From the NCBI GenBank assembly GCA_026996605.1, contig JALWLE010000060.1, positions 1 to 64,000 on the forward strand: DNA of 64,000 nucleotides. The letters are read 5' to 3'. The position numbers and the translations under genes were made by a program. Under the pieces are notes generated by a model that was given only the letters and a program-made list of their open reading frames with translations, did not search any database and was not told the DNA's origin. The DNA is from Flavobacteriales bacterium (GTDB lineage: Bacteria; Bacteroidota; Bacteroidia; Flavobacteriales; Flavobacteriaceae). Position 1 is the stretch's first letter. Every line of letters starts with the position of its first letter. Of the stretch, positions 15,417 through 50,837 are shown one piece after another.

Positions 15417-16283
15417 TTATTTAAAAAAATCTTTTAATGCTTTGTCCCATTTTCGAGGTTTATAATCAAATAATTTTTTAATTTTCTTTTTGGACAAAAC
15501 TGAATATGTCGGACGTCTGACTCTTTTTTCAAAATGAGAACTGTCAATTGGTTTAATTTTTTTATTGATACCGGCATAGGATAAAATCTTTTTTCCAAAA
15601 TCATACCAACTTGCTTTACCCTGATTACTGAAATGATATGTGCCATAATAGTTTTTTTCAGGATTTTCACCTATGGTTTTAATCATAAATAATAAAAAGT
15701 GAATTAAATCGGGGGCATAAGTCGGGGTACCTATTTGATCATTTACCAGTTTGAGTTTTTTTTGCGTTTTAGAAAGTTCTAAAACAGTTTTGACAAAGTT
15801 ATTATTGTATCTTGAGTATAACCAAGAAGTACGTATAATCAAATATTTTGTTAAATATTGACGTATTATTTCTTCCCCCATTAATTTGGATGCACCATAA
15901 ATGTTTAACGGATTCGGTTTGTCATTTTCGAGATATGGCTTTTGTTTTTTTCCGTCAAATACATAATCTGTAGAGATATGTACTAAAGTGAAATCATATT
16001 TTTTAGCCGCTTTTGCTAAATTAGCTACACCTTTAACATTTACTTTAAAACATGACTTTTTATCTGTTTCTGCTTGGTTTACATTGGTATAAGCTGCAAA
16101 ATTTAAACAGTAATCATAGCTATTTTCTTTAAAAAAACGCTTTACGGCTTTTTTGTCGGTAATATTCAGTGTATATTTACTCTTAAATACTATATCAAAA
16201 TATGGTTGTGGTATCATTCTTAATGATTTTCCCAACTGGCTTTCAGCGCCTGTTACCAAAATTTTGATTTTTTTGTTTGTCAT
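15417..16283 (-). CDS. rfbD: dTDP-4-dehydrorhamnose reductase
   Basis: A 288-residue SDR-family enzyme that makes the last step to dTDP-L-rhamnose. It has the N-terminal NAD(P) loop LVTGAESQLGKSL (about 10-22), the catalytic HISTDYVFDG block (about 105-114) and YGASKLMGE (Tyr/Lys of YxxxK, about 130-138). It overlaps the rfbC stop by 4 bases (ATGA), indicating coupled translation. rfbA and rfbB, needed for the first two steps, are not in the window. Confidence 0.93.
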   Translation of the reverse strand: MTNKKIKILVTGAESQLGKSLRMIPQPYFDIVFKSKYTLNITDKKAVKRFFKENSYDYCLNFAAYTNVNQAETDKKSCFKVNVKGVANLAKAAKKYDFTLVHISTDYVFDGKKQKPYLENDKPNPLNIYGASKLMGEEIIRQYLTKYLIIRTSWLYSRYNNNFVKTVLELSKTQKKLKLVNDQIGTPTYAPDLIHFLLFMIKTIGENPEKNYYGTYHFSNQGKASWYDFGKKILSYAGINKKIKPIDSSHFEKRVRRPTYSVLSKKKIKKLFDYKPRKWDKALKDFFK

Positions 16284-16831
16284 AAATGATCTTTTAAGTC
16301 TTTTAAGTATGGTAATGTTTTATCTTTTTCAGATAAAATAATTTGTGATAGGTCGTATTGCCAGTCAATATTTAATTCGGGATCGTCAAAGCGAATGCCG
16401 GCTTCACTTTGTGGATGATAAATATTGTCGATTTTGTAAAAAAACAAGGTCTCATCTTCTAAACTTAAATAACCGTGAGCCATGCCACGTGGAATAAACA
16501 ATTGTTTTTTGTTTTCGGCACTTAATATAATTGAAAAATATTGTCCGAAAGTTTTTGATTTCTTTCGCAAATCAACAACAACATCTAAAACAGCGCCTTT
16601 AAGAACACTTACTAATTTTGCTTGTTCATAAGGATTTTTTTGAAAATGTAAACCTCTTAAAACGCCTTTTTGTGATCGGGCTAAATTATCTTGAATAAAA
16701 CGAATCTTTCGATTAGTTAAACGGTCGAATTCATACTGATTATAAAACTCATAAAAAAATCCTCTATTGTCACTAAAAATTTTTGGTTCTAAGATATATA
16801 GTTGCTCAATAAAAGTAGATTGTATGCTCAT
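16280..16831 (-). CDS. rfbC: dTDP-4-dehydrorhamnose 3,5-epimerase
   Basis: A 183-residue cupin-fold epimerase. The family blocks are clear: IFSDNRGFFYEFYN, VLRGLHFQKNPYEQAKLV (catalytic His), GAVLDVVVDLRKKSKTFG and IPRGMAHGYLSL. It acts just before RfbD in dTDP-L-rhamnose synthesis. It shares one base with the upstream Wzz-like gene and four with rfbD. Confidence 0.94.
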   Translation of the reverse strand: MSIQSTFIEQLYILEPKIFSDNRGFFYEFYNQYEFDRLTNRKIRFIQDNLARSQKGVLRGLHFQKNPYEQAKLVSVLKGAVLDVVVDLRKKSKTFGQYFSIILSAENKKQLFIPRGMAHGYLSLEDETLFFYKIDNIYHPQSEAGIRFDDPELNIDWQYDLSQIILSEKDKTLPYLKDLKDHL

Positions 16832-17892
16832 TATGATTTGTCGGCTTTTTGTTGTTGATATTTATTTAAATAAGCATTAAAATCTTTTAGTAGTAGGATA
16901 AGCAGTACAAATAGAAAACCTAATAAAGAAAATTTGATGTATTTATTTTTTATCAAAGAAGGTTTTTGGATACCATTTTTAGGAAAACTGTTTAAAAAAA
17001 TTATAGCATCATCATATTTATTAATTTGGTCGATTGTTTTTCTTAAGTTAATCAAAGCATTTTCTCTTTCAATAAATAAGTTATAAAGTTCTTCGGGTTT
17101 TTCTATTTTTTGATTGGCTATAACTATATTATTAGCGGCTGTTTCCGGTTTTCGTCCTGATTCCATCCATACGCGATTATAGACTGCTCGCATTGAATCA
17201 ATATCATTTAATGACTTTAGGTATTTTTGTTTTTGGATATCTAAATAAGTCAAGAGATTTTTTTTTCTTTTTTCTATATGGGCATCATTATTGAATAGAT
17301 TTTTGATTTTGTCATTTAAATTATTAAAAACTTTTGGAGAATCAGTCGTGATTTCTAATGACCAGATATGATTGAGATTATCATTTTTACTAATGTTTCT
17401 TTTAAAATCTTCAAAATTTAAGAATTTGTAAACTACAGTATCTTTAGTCTTTAAATATTCTTCAAAGTTGTCCATTATATAAATATCATTAATAATCGGC
17501 TTCAACTCAAAATATTTAAGGTGAATAGCTTCATCGGAAGATATATCCAGCAATTTCCCTAAACTAATAAAATCTCGTTTTTTTATCAAGTCATTAAATG
17601 CTTCTACTTTTTCTTGTAGTCCCAGTTGTGCATCAAAATTGGTTCTTAAAGTGGCTTGACCGTAATAGACATTAGATTTTTTATCGATAAAAAACGAAAC
17701 CAGTAAACCGAGTAACAGTCCCAAGCCTAAAATGATAGAGTGTTTTTTTACATAAAGTGTAGCATCAATAAATACAAAAAAGAGCCATTTAAACATATTA
17801 CCAATACCTCTAAAAAAACTTTTAAACATATTGCCAATGGCTGTAAAAAATTGTAAAACATCAATTTCTTCGGGTTGTATTTGTTGGTTCAT
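16831..17892 (-). CDS. Wzz-type polysaccharide chain-length determinant protein
   Basis: A 353-residue inner-membrane protein with the Wzz topology: a transmembrane segment near residues 55-70 (IILGLGLLLGLLVSFF), a large, mostly helical periplasmic part, and a C-terminal transmembrane segment near 325-340. An unusual amphipathic N-terminal part (about 1-45), with the near-repeat IGNMFKSFFRGIGNMFKWLFF, precedes it. Such proteins set the length of O-antigen or exopolysaccharide. The rhamnose genes downstream support a surface-glycan role. It starts 2 bases after the stop of the DUF6909-like gene. Confidence 0.8.
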   Translation of the reverse strand: MNQQIQPEEIDVLQFFTAIGNMFKSFFRGIGNMFKWLFFVFIDATLYVKKHSIILGLGLLLGLLVSFFIDKKSNVYYGQATLRTNFDAQLGLQEKVEAFNDLIKKRDFISLGKLLDISSDEAIHLKYFELKPIINDIYIMDNFEEYLKTKDTVVYKFLNFEDFKRNISKNDNLNHIWSLEITTDSPKVFNNLNDKIKNLFNNDAHIEKRKKNLLTYLDIQKQKYLKSLNDIDSMRAVYNRVWMESGRKPETAANNIVIANQKIEKPEELYNLFIERENALINLRKTIDQINKYDDAIIFLNSFPKNGIQKPSLIKNKYIKFSLLGFLFVLLILLLKDFNAYLNKYQQQKADKS

Positions 17893-17894
17893 GA

Positions 17895-19577
17895 TTATTT
17901 GGTTTTAAGGACTTGTTGTAATATTTTTTTTGTGATAATATAAGTGGGTTTGACTCCTTTTATACCTAATGGTCCTGATGCTAATGTGCTACCTGTTTGT
18001 AAAGGATTATCTGAGGCATAATAAGCATATCGTACTTTAACATCGGCATTAATGTTTCCTCTGATTTTAGAAGCGGACTGAATGGCTTTTTGATAATGAG
18101 CTCCTTCCATTTCCAAACCAATGGCTCTCCAAGTTGAGTTTTTAAAAAAACTTAAAATATCTTTGTTTTGTAATGATGTTCCTAAAACGGTTACCATAGT
18201 TCCTTCGTATACATCAATGTCTTCGTTTTCAAAATCTTTGATAGATAGCTCATTATCAATGGGATAATTATCTGCAGTTCCTTCAAACATATGTACTTTA
18301 GGTATCATGATATCACCTTTGTCACCTACCAAAATACCGGCTTTTCCCATAATGGATATAGATTGTACGTTTAGGTGTTCTTTTTTTTCGTTTTCTTCAA
18401 AAGGTTTTAAAAGTTCATCCATGACTTCAAAAGCTTGTTCACCGAAAGCATAATCCATAACGATAAGTACAGGCTTATTAGTATTATCTTGTTCATAAAA
18501 ATCATTTGGTAAATCAGCTTCTGTAAACTTTGAGGTGTCAAAAATTTGGACATCAATATTAGCACCTGAACGATCTTTAAGATAGATCATGCCATTTTTT
18601 TGAGCCAATTGGGTTACTTTATTCCGCATATTTTGATGTTGATCTTGACTCAATTCTTTATATAATATCATTTCATCTTTATCTGTTTTGATAGCTTTTT
18701 GAGCAAACAGCACATTTAGCACAGAATGCATATTAGAACTGATAATGTGTATGGGGCGTTGTAGCAAATCTTGTTTTTGCAAATACTTTTTAATGTTTGA
18801 TGCCCAGATTTCTCCATAAACATGGTGTCCAAGTCTTTCTCGAAGGCGTGGACTGAATTTAATGACACGTTTTTGTCCTAAATATGCTTCGTCTAAAGCC
18901 AACTTTCCCAGCCAATAAATCAACTGAAAAAACCGATTAGGATTATTCGTTTCTTTAAACTCCGCATATGCTTGTTTGGTTTCTTCAAAAGTTCTTCCCA
19001 ATAGGGTTGAAAGATAGGCTATAATACGTTCGGTCTCTGCTTTCTTGAGTTTTTTATGTTCTAAAACCACTTTTTCGAGAGCTTGCCATTCTCTCCCCGG
19101 GGTACCTTCCTTATCGATAACGGCTTTTTCTCTAATTTTATGAGATTCAATAAACAAAAAAGTCAGATGTGTTAAGATATCATAAACATCAGACCTGCCG
19201 CGCGTTAATTCCACATTCATTTGATCTTGATCAATACGGTAACAATGTCGTCGTCTTTTGGGTGGAATAATCGGTTTGAATTGTGAACTGCGATAGCCCT
19301 CATCATCAGTCATGTATATAACACGACATTCTTCAATGCCTTCGGGTAAACGGTCCATAACGTATTTAAGTCCGTTTAGCTCGGATTTATCCGTTGCAAT
19401 ATCACCGTAAATTTCAGGTCGTAAGGTCAATAAACCTTGCTTTAAGGTGTTCCCTGATACACCAAACGGTTTGTAAAAACCACGGTTGAGCAAATGTCGC
19501 ATGGTAATGTACAAGCGTTCAATGGCATTAGATGATTCTCTGGCTCTGGTACGCTTTCGTAATTCGGTTTTGGTCAT
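17895..19577 (-). CDS. DUF6909-like protein with nucleoside-phosphorylase-like C-terminal part
   Basis: A 560-residue protein with no signal peptide. It matches a conserved Bacteroidota family that I believe is DUF6909; the blocks LLTLRPEIYGDIATDK, IPPKRRRHCYRIDQDQM and ELTRGRSDVYDILTHLTFLF are highly family-like. From about residue 390 it resembles the nucleoside phosphorylase/AMP nucleosidase fold: IMGKAGILVGDKGDIMIP, then VTVLGTSLQN and GLEMEGAHYQKAI, where the Glu in EMEG would correspond to the ribose-binding Glu. That is inference from motifs. A minus-strand -7 element (19596-19603) fixes the start at MTKTELRKR rather than 7 codons earlier. The Wzz-like gene follows after 2 bases, so it heads the rhamnose/chain-length operon. 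Confidence 0.75.
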   Translation of the reverse strand: MTKTELRKRTRARESSNAIERLYITMRHLLNRGFYKPFGVSGNTLKQGLLTLRPEIYGDIATDKSELNGLKYVMDRLPEGIEECRVIYMTDDEGYRSSQFKPIIPPKRRRHCYRIDQDQMNVELTRGRSDVYDILTHLTFLFIESHKIREKAVIDKEGTPGREWQALEKVVLEHKKLKKAETERIIAYLSTLLGRTFEETKQAYAEFKETNNPNRFFQLIYWLGKLALDEAYLGQKRVIKFSPRLRERLGHHVYGEIWASNIKKYLQKQDLLQRPIHIISSNMHSVLNVLFAQKAIKTDKDEMILYKELSQDQHQNMRNKVTQLAQKNGMIYLKDRSGANIDVQIFDTSKFTEADLPNDFYEQDNTNKPVLIVMDYAFGEQAFEVMDELLKPFEENEKKEHLNVQSISIMGKAGILVGDKGDIMIPKVHMFEGTADNYPIDNELSIKDFENEDIDVYEGTMVTVLGTSLQNKDILSFFKNSTWRAIGLEMEGAHYQKAIQSASKIRGNINADVKVRYAYYASDNPLQTGSTLASGPLGIKGVKPTYIITKKILQQVLKTK

Positions 19578-19595
19578 AAATATACTATCTTTTCG

Positions 19596-19603
19596 CAAAG
19601 GTA
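19596..19603 (-). promoter_or_regulatory. Promoter -7 element for the DUF6909-wzz-rfbCD operon
   Basis: Minus-strand TACCTTTG, 18 bases before the chosen start at 19577; it overlaps the alternative start at 19598. Confidence 0.6.
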
Positions 19604-19630
19604 ATCAATATTAATGAATTGAATCAAAAG

Positions 19631-20800
19631 TTAATACTGCAAAAAATCAATAGCTCTTTTCATTGCTTTTTTAGCATCCGGATCTGTTTCAACTTTATAA
19701 CTTGCTTTTAAATCTTTGAGCGCATCGGTGTATTCGGTTTGAACAAGGAGGTTAGCAGCATGCGCACGAACTTTAGGATTCCTATCTCTTAAAAGTCCTT
19801 TATTCCACCGTACAGAAGGACGTGAATGCATAGCGTATAAACTATCCATTGCCGCTTTTTGTTTTGTAGGGTCAGATTCAAATAATTGCCAAAATAATTG
19901 TTTTTCTATTTTTTTTAATTCTTTGTCAAACAATATTGCATTATGGTTTTTGTCAGGATGTATCCATTTAATATCATAAGAGATGAGTTTGTTATTGGTT
20001 ACCCAACGTGCCATACGTGGAATCATAAACCGAATGCCGGGGGTTGATTCGGCATGTCCGCCAATGGCAAATATTTTACCTTTTCCGTAACTTTGATGAT
20101 ACATAAATAATTTTCCCGGAGTTAAACCTACCGGATATCCTTCATTGGGATGAATATCGGTTACGTAAACAGCTACCGGTTTAAAACTTTTTTCTTGGTT
20201 TAATGGTGCCATAATAGGTCCATCGTAATACTGGATAAACTGGGGTTGGTCTTTAAATTCGGGAAATATTTTCAGTCCTTCATCATTGAGTTTAAACTCT
20301 ATTAAACCGCGTCCGCGATTGTAGTGCGGTCGGTCGAGGTGTTTGACATCACCTATTTTTAAACTCGGATAGCCATCAGTTTGACACATCATATAAGCAC
20401 CGGCACAAATACCGATAGCTCCACCACCTTGTTTGATATAATTAATAACTTTTTGCTTACCTGTTTTACCCAAACTGTTTAATTGTTTGCTACCACTACC
20501 ACCGGGAAAAATAATCGCATCTGTTTCAGTCAATTTGCCTGTAATAATATCTGCCGGACTAAGAGGGTATGCGGTTATATCCGGATCAATTTTAAGCGCT
20601 TCAATAGTTTCAATGACACTAACTGCACCGGCTCCGTTACCGCTAAAAACACCCACTTTTATTTTAGGATTATTTCCTGTATTGTTAGCAATTGTGTTTT
20701 CGGTTTGTTTTTGAGGTTTGTATTTTTCTTTTTGAGCAGGATTATTACAAGCGGGAAAGACAAGAAAAATAATTAATGATATGTATGATAAATATTTCAT
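19631..20800 (-). CDS. BPL_N-type glutamine-amidotransferase-like lipoprotein with HEAT-like tail
   Basis: A 389-residue predicted lipoprotein (lipobox FPAC, Cys18). Residues about 48-255 form a class I glutamine-amidotransferase-like domain of the biotin-protein-ligase N-terminal (BPL_N) type: VGVFSGNGAGAV, IIFPGGSGSKQ and GGGAIGICAGAYMM with the nucleophile-elbow Cys132; GGHAES near 250 may supply a His. The last 70 residues look like HEAT repeats (RDRNPKVRAHAANLLVQ). Function of extracytoplasmic BPL_N proteins is unknown. Its start lies 6 bases after the C45 hydrolase stop, so the two are probably made together. Confidence 0.78.
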   Translation of the reverse strand: MKYLSYISLIIFLVFPACNNPAQKEKYKPQKQTENTIANNTGNNPKIKVGVFSGNGAGAVSVIETIEALKIDPDITAYPLSPADIITGKLTETDAIIFPGGSGSKQLNSLGKTGKQKVINYIKQGGGAIGICAGAYMMCQTDGYPSLKIGDVKHLDRPHYNRGRGLIEFKLNDEGLKIFPEFKDQPQFIQYYDGPIMAPLNQEKSFKPVAVYVTDIHPNEGYPVGLTPGKLFMYHQSYGKGKIFAIGGHAESTPGIRFMIPRMARWVTNNKLISYDIKWIHPDKNHNAILFDKELKKIEKQLFWQLFESDPTKQKAAMDSLYAMHSRPSVRWNKGLLRDRNPKVRAHAANLLVQTEYTDALKDLKASYKVETDPDAKKAMKRAIDFLQY

Positions 20801-20806
20801 CGCATA

Positions 20807-22045
20807 TTATAGTTTGAGATTAAATTCTTTGAGATAAGCTTCCTTAATATACTGATCGACCCATTTATAAAAAGTTTTCATTTGATTTTTATCTGTTTTG
20901 CCGTTTTTATACCATTCGGCAAGCATATCGTTGGTTTTACGATAAATGGTATTTTCATATTTTTTGGTCAGTTGTACAATACCGGTTTCTTTGTTATTAA
21001 CAAGCGCATTGATATTGACATATTGATGATCGACTTTTCCCCAGCGTATATTCATGATTTTATATTTTTTGAGACTTAATGCCGCATGACAAATGGGAGA
21101 ATCTTTTAATTCTTTGTCGTACACAACTACCTGAGGTAATGATACTTTACTTACCCATGCAGGCACTACCATTGATGCCATAGGAAACCCGACATTGGAC
21201 CACATGGTTGCTAAATCGGGGTTTTCACCTTTTTTAACACCTTGAACAACTACTGATGATGACGTACCCGAACGCGGAATAAAATCTCTAAAATGAATAT
21301 ATTTGATTGTACCGGGAGGAAAGTTGTAATATTTTTCAAGTGGGTTTTCTTTAATTAAAGCGTGCCACATGTTTTTGGCAACATTTTGTTGTATATATTG
21401 TGCTGAAATACCTTCATAGGTCGAAACAGCTTGATAGAATAAATCATTTGCAGAATTGTAACGGATGTAACCACTGCTTTCAAAGCCGTAGGGTCCGGTA
21501 TGTGAGTAATTGGTCCGAATGATATATCCGAATGGTGCAACGCTTGGATCATTGGCGTCAAATTTGGTGTATTTATAATTATTGATTTCGTAATCTGCGG
21601 CACCTCCTTGTGCATCAATCACTCCAAAGTTAGCTTCTAAACCTGTTGGTCTTGGTAAACTATCGAGTAAGGCTTCAAAGTCAGCTAAGGTTTTGCAAGT
21701 GGCTAAAGCTTGTTTAATAATCCGACCTTCAAATCCGGTTAATTTATCCTTATTGTCTAGGTTTAAATTATATGAGGCGGAATTCATAATGGCAAAGCCT
21801 TCAGAATTAACGCCTATCCAGACACTTTTTCCTTCTAAATCTTTGGAATTAACCAAACCAATATATGCGTATTTACCATCAGAAAAGTAACGCAATGAAT
21901 TTTTGACCGCCCATGTATCACGATTTTTCCACAATAAAGGTCTGCCGTCAACAGTATATTTACCTGATATAACAGCCGTTGTGCAAGCATTCAGGTTGTT
22001 AGAATAATTTAATAAAATAAAAATGATTAGTAAAGTTCGTTTCAT
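20807..22045 (-). CDS. C45-type Ntn-hydrolase (acylase-like), exported
   Basis: A 412-residue exported hydrolase of the C45/acyl-CoA:6-APA acyltransferase and choloylglycine-like Ntn group. After a signal peptide ending LNA, Cys21 begins CTTAVISGKYTVDGRPLLWKN, the classic N-terminal nucleophile and R/N-rich active-site block; VWIGVNSEGFAIMNSAS and FGVIDAQGGAADYEI follow. Cleavage after Ala20 would expose the nucleophile Cys; the same site also resembles a weak lipobox, so lipidation cannot be excluded. Start at MKRTLLI is set by a -7 element at 22070-22077 that overlaps the longer start. The amidotransferase-like gene follows after 6 bases. Confidence 0.8.
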   Translation of the reverse strand: MKRTLLIIFILLNYSNNLNACTTAVISGKYTVDGRPLLWKNRDTWAVKNSLRYFSDGKYAYIGLVNSKDLEGKSVWIGVNSEGFAIMNSASYNLNLDNKDKLTGFEGRIIKQALATCKTLADFEALLDSLPRPTGLEANFGVIDAQGGAADYEINNYKYTKFDANDPSVAPFGYIIRTNYSHTGPYGFESSGYIRYNSANDLFYQAVSTYEGISAQYIQQNVAKNMWHALIKENPLEKYYNFPPGTIKYIHFRDFIPRSGTSSSVVVQGVKKGENPDLATMWSNVGFPMASMVVPAWVSKVSLPQVVVYDKELKDSPICHAALSLKKYKIMNIRWGKVDHQYVNINALVNNKETGIVQLTKKYENTIYRKTNDMLAEWYKNGKTDKNQMKTFYKWVDQYIKEAYLKEFNLKL

Positions 22046-22069
22046 AGATTTGTTTTTAAGACAACCAAA

Positions 22070-22077
22070 CAAATATA
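22070..22077 (-). promoter_or_regulatory. Promoter -7 element for the C45 hydrolase operon
   Basis: Minus-strand TATATTTG, 24 bases before the ATG at 22045. Confidence 0.6.
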
Positions 22078-50237: not shown

Positions 50238-50837
50238 TTAATAATTTTCACGCTTCATCACATTACTAACATTGTGCACATTTACAACCGGATTACTTGC
50301 AAGATGCACATTGACTAAACCTTTACCATTTATATAATTTTGTGCACTCGAATACGTATAATGAGATGCCTTTTCTACAATTCCTGCCCGTACGGGATTT
50401 AAATGTATATAATCCAATTTAGACCAAAGAAACCGTTCTGAATATACTTCTTCCGGATGATTGTTTAACTGCCAAAATTGAAACTTTTTATTGCGTTGAT
50501 GGGTTTCGGTAGCTTTTTTAAAACGTTCTAACATCCACTCTTTACGACTTTCGTTTTCTGCTTGAATTTGGTCTAAAACTGTTTTTGCCGTAAACTTCTT
50601 AAAATCTCTAATCAATTCCGACAACTTTTCATCTTCTGATTGTATAATCATGTGTATATGATTTGACATAATCACATAGCCATACAAAATCATTCCTTTG
50701 TTCTTAATGCAATAGTTAAAACTATTTACCACAATATCACGATATATTTTCCGGCTAAAAACATCTATCCAATCAACCACCGTCATGGTAATGAAATGCG
50801 CCTTAGCTTGGTCTCTTATGATATATCCTTCTTTCAC
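50238..50837 (-). CDS. REP-associated tyrosine transposase (RAYT, IS200/IS605-like)
   Basis: A 199-residue Y1-type HUH endonuclease. The HUH motif is in YVIMSNHIHMIIQ (His60 and His62), and the catalytic Tyr is probably Tyr142 in KLDYIHLNPVRAGIV. The block SRKEWMLERFKKA and KKFQFWQLNNHPEEVYS are typical of RAYTs. RAYTs recognise and mobilise REP hairpins rather than themselves in most genomes. A -7 element (50858-50865) lies 20 bases upstream, so it is probably expressed. The C-terminal 30 residues (two VNVH units) are an extension I do not recognise. Confidence 0.88.
   Translation of the reverse strand: MKEGYIIRDQAKAHFITMTVVDWIDVFSRKIYRDIVVNSFNYCIKNKGMILYGYVIMSNHIHMIIQSEDEKLSELIRDFKKFTAKTVLDQIQAENESRKEWMLERFKKATETHQRNKKFQFWQLNNHPEEVYSERFLWSKLDYIHLNPVRAGIVEKASHYTYSSAQNYINGKGLVNVHLASNPVVNVHNVSNVMKRENY

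Follow-up and report, generated by a model that had tools for sequence, protein, structure and literature searches.

The window, the whole stretch of 64,000 nucleotides of Flavobacteriales DNA that was analysed, encodes a DUF6909 protein that is probably a second, deeply diverged, non-orthologous AMP nucleosidase. In Bacteroidota, DUF6909 stands in for the AMN-like AMP nucleosidase (TIGR01721): a genome has one or the other, almost never both. The analysis shows an open reading frame with a predicted fold and invariant residues, two families that exclude each other, and a gene tree that implies transfer from order to order.

The DUF6909 gene and protein

The gene and the two parts of its product are located as follows.

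17895..19577, minus strand: DUF6909 protein, predicted AMP-nucleosidase-like N-glycosidase, 560 residues (open reading frame, Pfam, predicted model)
18828..19577, minus strand: N-terminal domain, residues 1–250, mostly helical in the full-length model
17898..18821, minus strand: predicted C-terminal NP-I catalytic domain, residues 253–560 (VIA-align 2 and Foldseek on the predicted model)

The reading frame starts with the ATG at 19577 and stops at 17895–17897; an alternative TTG start, 21 nt upstream of the ATG, would give 567 residues. Pfam PF21850 (DUF6909), with a cut-off of 27 bits, matches the protein at 224.9 bits and an E value of 2e-66, and at least 583 homologous stretches are found in GTDB contigs. 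Therefore, the reading frame is not due to chance. An earlier, sequence-only reading had described a 560-residue DUF6909-like protein; the coordinates and the Pfam match bear this out, and the two motifs it quoted, GLEMEGAHYQKAI and VTVLGTSLQN, are both present. No NCBIfam model matched the window protein, and a PMC literature search found no paper on DUF6909 or PF21850.

DUF6909 and the AMN-like enzyme replace each other

The strongest evidence in this analysis is that DUF6909 and the AMN-like enzyme replace each other. AMN-like matches were taken as strong at a TIGR01721 E value <1e-30; 11 weak matches (above 1e-10), seven in DUF6909 genomes of the window's own family (f1; E 1e-4 to 1e-7) and four elsewhere (1e-4 to 1e-9), were not counted. 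Across the phylum samples, 56 of 395 genomes have DUF6909 and 166 of 390 match TIGR01721 (155 strongly, 11 weakly), and no genome has DUF6909 together with a strong TIGR01721 match. The order sample of 196 genomes contains 72 with DUF6909, 32 with the AMN-like enzyme, none with both, and 92 with neither.

The same pattern is seen within families. Among 88 genomes of family f60, 11 have DUF6909, 61 the AMN-like enzyme, none both, and 16 neither; the corresponding numbers for the 196 genomes of family f8 are 95, 88, 1, and 14, where 42.7 genomes with both would be expected. The P values (4e-7 for f60; 2e-39, hypergeometric, for f8) assume independence and are too small, since the genomes share ancestry, and the argument is not made from them alone. 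The sole f8 genome with both, G661, is a draft (82% complete, 5% contaminated) with a partial DUF6909 match (E 3e-12). Even a single genus (g268) has DUF6909 in three genomes and the AMN-like enzyme in one. DUF6909 seems to be present in every sampled f1 genome; its presence in all f1 and f2 genomes is read from the order of a list that gives only 20 non-matching genomes.

Since families f5, f8, and f60 all contain genomes of both kinds, at least one switch is required in each of them, provided that the GTDB families are monophyletic. In a tree of 96 DUF6909 sequences, a sample of those available, five f60 proteins (L215–L219) group with f8 proteins with a support of 1.0, apart from the f1 and f2 proteins, although f1, f2, and f60 belong to the same order. 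The nesting of f60 proteins among those of f8, a family of another order, indicates horizontal transfer between orders, and in f60 the transferred DUF6909 goes with absence of the AMN-like enzyme. Repeated exchange that nearly always leaves one of the two is expected of enzymes with the same job. The guess of the sequence-only reading that DUF6909 is an AMP nucleosidase is thus strengthened by its complementary distribution with TIGR01721, a family whose substrate in Bacteroidota, AMP, comes from annotation.

Two further observations concern the other Amn proteins of the phylum. The AMN-like gene of f8 (L204, L230, L234–L239) has a conserved neighborhood of its own (clusters 2–11), unlike that of DUF6909. 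Fourteen two-domain Amn proteins of ~395 residues, 37–44% identical to E. coli Amn, were taken from other classes (L187–L200). Despite these proteins, canonical E. coli Amn was rejected as the enzyme of the phylum, as its N-domain model PF10423 matched in 0 of 148 genomes.

Predicted fold of the C-terminal domain

An AlphaFold2 model of the full-length protein was built with the 73 aligned sequences of alignment A1, which takes in 72 of 80 contig loci (L035, L061, L066, L083, L093, L099, L101, and L106 are omitted). The model has a mean pLDDT of 81.9 and a pTM of 0.65. The top Foldseek match is AMP nucleosidase from Salmonella (2guw_B, E 2.7e-7), and the best 50 matches listed are all NP-I enzymes, comprising AMP nucleosidase, MTAN, futalosine hydrolase, PNP, MTA phosphorylase, and uridine phosphorylase. 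VIA-align 2 places residues 256–558 onto purine nucleoside phosphorylase (1xe3_E) with a Z score of 19.0 and an rmsd of 2.7 over 213 residues. The best 50 VIA-align 2 matches listed have Z scores of 18.0–19.0 and are ties, with PNP, MTAN, futalosine hydrolase, and uridine phosphorylase among them; Amn is not among these 50.

The predicted model thus supports an alpha/beta nucleoside phosphorylase/nucleosidase (NP-I) fold for the C-terminal part of DUF6909. The sequence-only reading had suggested a fold of this kind for that part and had proposed structure prediction and a fold search as the check; run on the predicted model, both Foldseek and VIA-align 2 agree with it. The NP-I fold by itself does not pick the substrate.

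Active-site residues

Three segments of the NP-I domain have putative counterparts in known AMP nucleosidases.

18264..18347, minus strand: GKAGIL...GD...EGTADNY stretch, residues 411–438, aligns with GKCGGL...GD...GEGTSNDY of AMN-like enzymes
18102..18113, minus strand: E489-M490-E491-G492, counterpart by alignment of the sugar-binding M404-E405 of E. coli Amn
18000..18014, minus strand: S522-D523-N524-P525-L526, counterpart by alignment of D428 (SDKPL) of E. coli Amn

A study of Klebsiella Amn (PMC9584410) gives N205, R381, W383, M404, E405, D428, and K436, together with H188 and Y189 of the other chain, and confines the conservation between Amn and more distant homologues to M404, E405, and D428. 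In the MAFFT alignment, M490, E491, and D523 of DUF6909 align with exactly these three residues. The Met-Glu (490–491) and Ser-Asp (522–523) pairs are invariant in 155 of 155 DUF6909 relatives; locus L214 (f62), from which no DUF6909 reading frame was obtained, is absent from this count and from the neighborhood counts below.

R381, W383, and K436 of Amn have no counterpart in DUF6909 in the same alignment, where TVLGTSLQN faces TTDDRNWE/TTNRRVWE of Amn and AMN-like enzymes. By eye, N282, where the first strand of the model ends, and H251-H252 before it are candidates for N205 and H188-Y189, respectively; MAFFT leaves them unaligned with their putative counterparts. Other invariant residues (T467, S468, Q470, N471, K412, H252, and H284) are candidates for lining the pocket.

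Comparison with NP-I and Amn families

AMN-like enzymes, a relative of which has been solved (PDB 1ybf), resemble DUF6909 in the NP-I fold (predicted for DUF6909), in the sequence in which the motifs GKxG, EGT[AS]..Y, DME/EME, and SD-x-P follow one another, and in occupying the same genomic place in a mutually exclusive manner. They differ in being ~256 residues long with one domain, whereas DUF6909 has ~250 extra N-terminal residues, and in keeping the R and W of TTNRRVWE; the profile match between the two families is not significant. Amn from E. coli, Salmonella, and Klebsiella (TIGR01717; 1t8r, 2guw, and 7uwq) shares with DUF6909 a two-part layout with a C-terminal NP-I domain, the counterparts of M404-E405 and D428, and the top Foldseek match. 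Unlike Amn, DUF6909 lacks PF10423 and the residues R381, W383, and K436, and the two have no BLASTP similarity (E 0.36 between the window protein and E. coli Amn). MTAN, DeoD, and uridine phosphorylases (PF01048) share the fold (Z 18–19), but DUF6909 members reach PF01048 below threshold or not at all. The window protein has no match to this model (cut-off 25.1 bits), and three of the seven members scanned score 12.4, 11.4, and 13.7 bits (E 0.043–0.22), in the same region as the GKAGIL...EGTADNY stretch.

Searches by sequence or profile do not reveal the fold by themselves. Neither phmmer nor hmmsearch against PDB chains matched anything relevant to DUF6909, and hhalign of A1 with four E. coli NP-I enzymes was insignificant. 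A larger hhalign comparison, of 136 DUF6909 sequences with 14 AMN-like proteins, 14 two-domain Amn proteins (including that of E. coli), and three other E. coli enzymes, was insignificant throughout. The P value to the AMN-like profile is 0.025, for 81 columns at the GKAGIL stretch with 31% identity, and that to the E. coli Mtn/DeoD/Udp profile is 0.006, no worse than to AMN-like. PF10423 matched none of the DUF6909 members scanned, and one of the 15 members in the mixed set scanned. The TIGR01717/TIGR01721 models match nine of the 15 members of set A3, equal to the number of its Amn proteins, and do not match P0001, the window DUF6909 protein. Homology searches on sequence neither favor nor rule out the Amn assignment, and the sequence evidence for an AMP nucleosidase is at most suggestive. 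Because the TIGR01717/TIGR01721 models do not match and R381 and W383 are missing, DUF6909 is not placed within the Amn families.

These differences leave room for DUF6909 being an NP-I nucleosidase that acts on another purine, either MTA/SAH or another or modified nucleotide; the mutual exclusion would then stem from a function that overlaps that of the AMN-like enzyme without being the same. The three Amn residues are not kept, and the distinct invariant residues named above may form a different pocket; PNP, MTAN, and the other enzymes named above tie in VIA-align 2. The genome to which the window belongs has no TIGR01721 or PF10423 match and only two PF01048 proteins, which read from their sequences as a PunA-type PNP and a relative of uridine phosphorylase, so that no MTAN was recognised among them and a role of DUF6909 on MTA/SAH is conceivable. 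However, DUF6909 replaces the AMN-like enzyme one-for-one across 196 and 88 genomes, and has an AMN-like-type GKxG...EGT[AS][DN][ND]Y stretch as well as the SD-x-P[LM] motif. Therefore, we consider another purine substrate unlikely.

The N-terminal domain

The N-terminal domain is rich in invariant Arg and Lys residues (R27, R32, K36, R76, R108, R114, and R195). Modelled alone from the single sequence, without an alignment, it reaches a pLDDT of 40. Foldseek aligned 2guw_B to the full model across 514 columns, but with an rmsd of 20, which is no more than a hint as to the fold of this domain. A regulatory role for the domain is possible.

Neighborhood of the DUF6909 gene

The DUF6909 gene is followed by three closely spaced genes and preceded by a promoter-like sequence.

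16831..17892, minus strand: two-TM protein (TM segments by eye), weakly Wzz-like, 353 residues, 2 bases after DUF6909; conserved at +1 within the own family alone
16280..16831, minus strand: rfbC/rmlC, overlaps the two-TM gene by 1 base
15417..16283, minus strand: rfbD/rmlD, overlaps rfbC by 4 bases
19596..19628, minus strand: promoter-like TTTG-N21-TAnnTTTG, 26–51 nt before the DUF6909 ATG

The sequence-only reading had proposed that DUF6909 leads a surface-glycan operon with a Wzz-like protein. The promoter-like match, which has the form of Bacteroidota promoters, fits DUF6909 as the leader of the transcript. The Wzz-like label is weak: the two-TM protein of the window has no Pfam Wzz match, and two of three relatives match the model with scores under the cut-off (E 0.0018 and 0.012).

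Directly upstream of DUF6909, the window contains a gene for a 389-residue likely lipoprotein (19631–20800) with BPL_N (amidotransferase-like) and HEAT_2 matches, adjoined by one for a 421-residue C45/AAT-family acyltransferase-like protein (20807–22072; Pfam E 1.6e-5). A 199-residue protein encoded at 50238–50837 resembles, by eye, a REP-associated Y1 transposase.

Of 40 own-family genomes, 31 have the Wzz-like gene at +1. Genes for GH3 (35/40) and an M23 peptidase (34/40), as well as rfbC (17/40), lie within five genes of DUF6909. Outside the own family, neither Wzz nor rml genes are near DUF6909 in any of 34 loci from eight families, and GH3 and M23 are near it only in the one locus each of f57 and f63. 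A count of 74 of 80 contig loci with Wzz at +1 is biased, as these loci are the closest relatives. The contrast between 31 of 40 and 0 of 34 marks the Wzz/rml neighborhood as lineage-specific synteny, and the presence of DUF6909 is independent of glycan genes. The neighborhood survey that the sequence-only reading had called for thus finds the arrangement frequent in the own family and absent from all 34 outside loci.

It is very unlikely, then, that DUF6909 is a nucleotide-cleaving or nucleotide-sensing enzyme for polysaccharide length control or dTDP-sugar supply, as that reading had proposed. The spacing in the window and the Wzz-like gene at +1 in the own family would suit such a function, but the link vanishes outside the family, and within it GH3 and M23 are equally frequent neighbors. 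As a general rule, a surface-glycan function was rejected.

In Flavobacteriaceae, the genes run pgk, SLT/LysM, DUF4837, M23 peptidase, GH3, DUF6909, Wzz-like, and rml; this long run is seen at L042:49-12801 and in most of 135 other loci. In the genome of the window, an M23–GH3 pair without DUF6909 is on a different contig (L248:6936-9332), and a second GH3 gene is at L247:8392-9855. GH3 enzymes, bacterial relatives of plant auxin-amido synthetases, form acyl-AMP and release AMP. A pairing of GH3 with an AMP nucleosidase would, speculatively, make sense for this reason.

Discussion

In the mechanism that we infer, which covers catalysis, AMP as the substrate, and regulation by the N-terminal domain, AMP and water would be converted to adenine and ribose 5-phosphate. 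M490-E491 of the NP-I domain would hold the ribose, D523 would protonate the leaving purine, and water would attack the anomeric carbon. The phosphate would be held by residues other than counterparts of R381 and K436; the candidates are the invariant pocket residues K412, H252, H284, T467, S468, Q470, and N471, and the likewise invariant T531. For E. coli Amn, MgATP is an activator and phosphate an inhibitor. The extra ~250-residue N-terminal domain of DUF6909, missing from AMN-like enzymes, probably regulates the enzyme.

The divergent pocket and the large N-terminal domain with its many invariant residues might suggest that DUF6909 has lost catalysis and uses its NP-I fold to sense nucleotides. 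This is highly improbable, as E491 and D523 are invariant in all 155 relatives and DUF6909 replaces an enzyme family.

A more far-reaching version of the AMP nucleosidase assignment is offered tentatively, as a proposal that is doubtful in its entirety. DUF6909 may be an allosteric purine-nucleotide N-glycosidase whose Arg/Lys-rich N-domain senses ATP, phosphate, or an alarmone, which is wired in Flavobacteriaceae to the AMP-producing GH3 acyl-amino-acid ligase, and which has repeatedly displaced the single-domain AMP nucleosidase, including between orders.

DUF6909 would act like an AMP nucleosidase but sits outside the Amn family models. If it is one, a protein known only as a DUF, and present in nearly every flavobacterium sampled, gains a function: it would control how much AMP and adenine is present in organisms for which no other AMP nucleosidase is apparent. 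The either/or pattern would then show cleanly how one form of an enzyme has replaced another on several occasions, and the family would offer a natural comparison between a possibly regulated two-domain AMP nucleosidase and a plain one.
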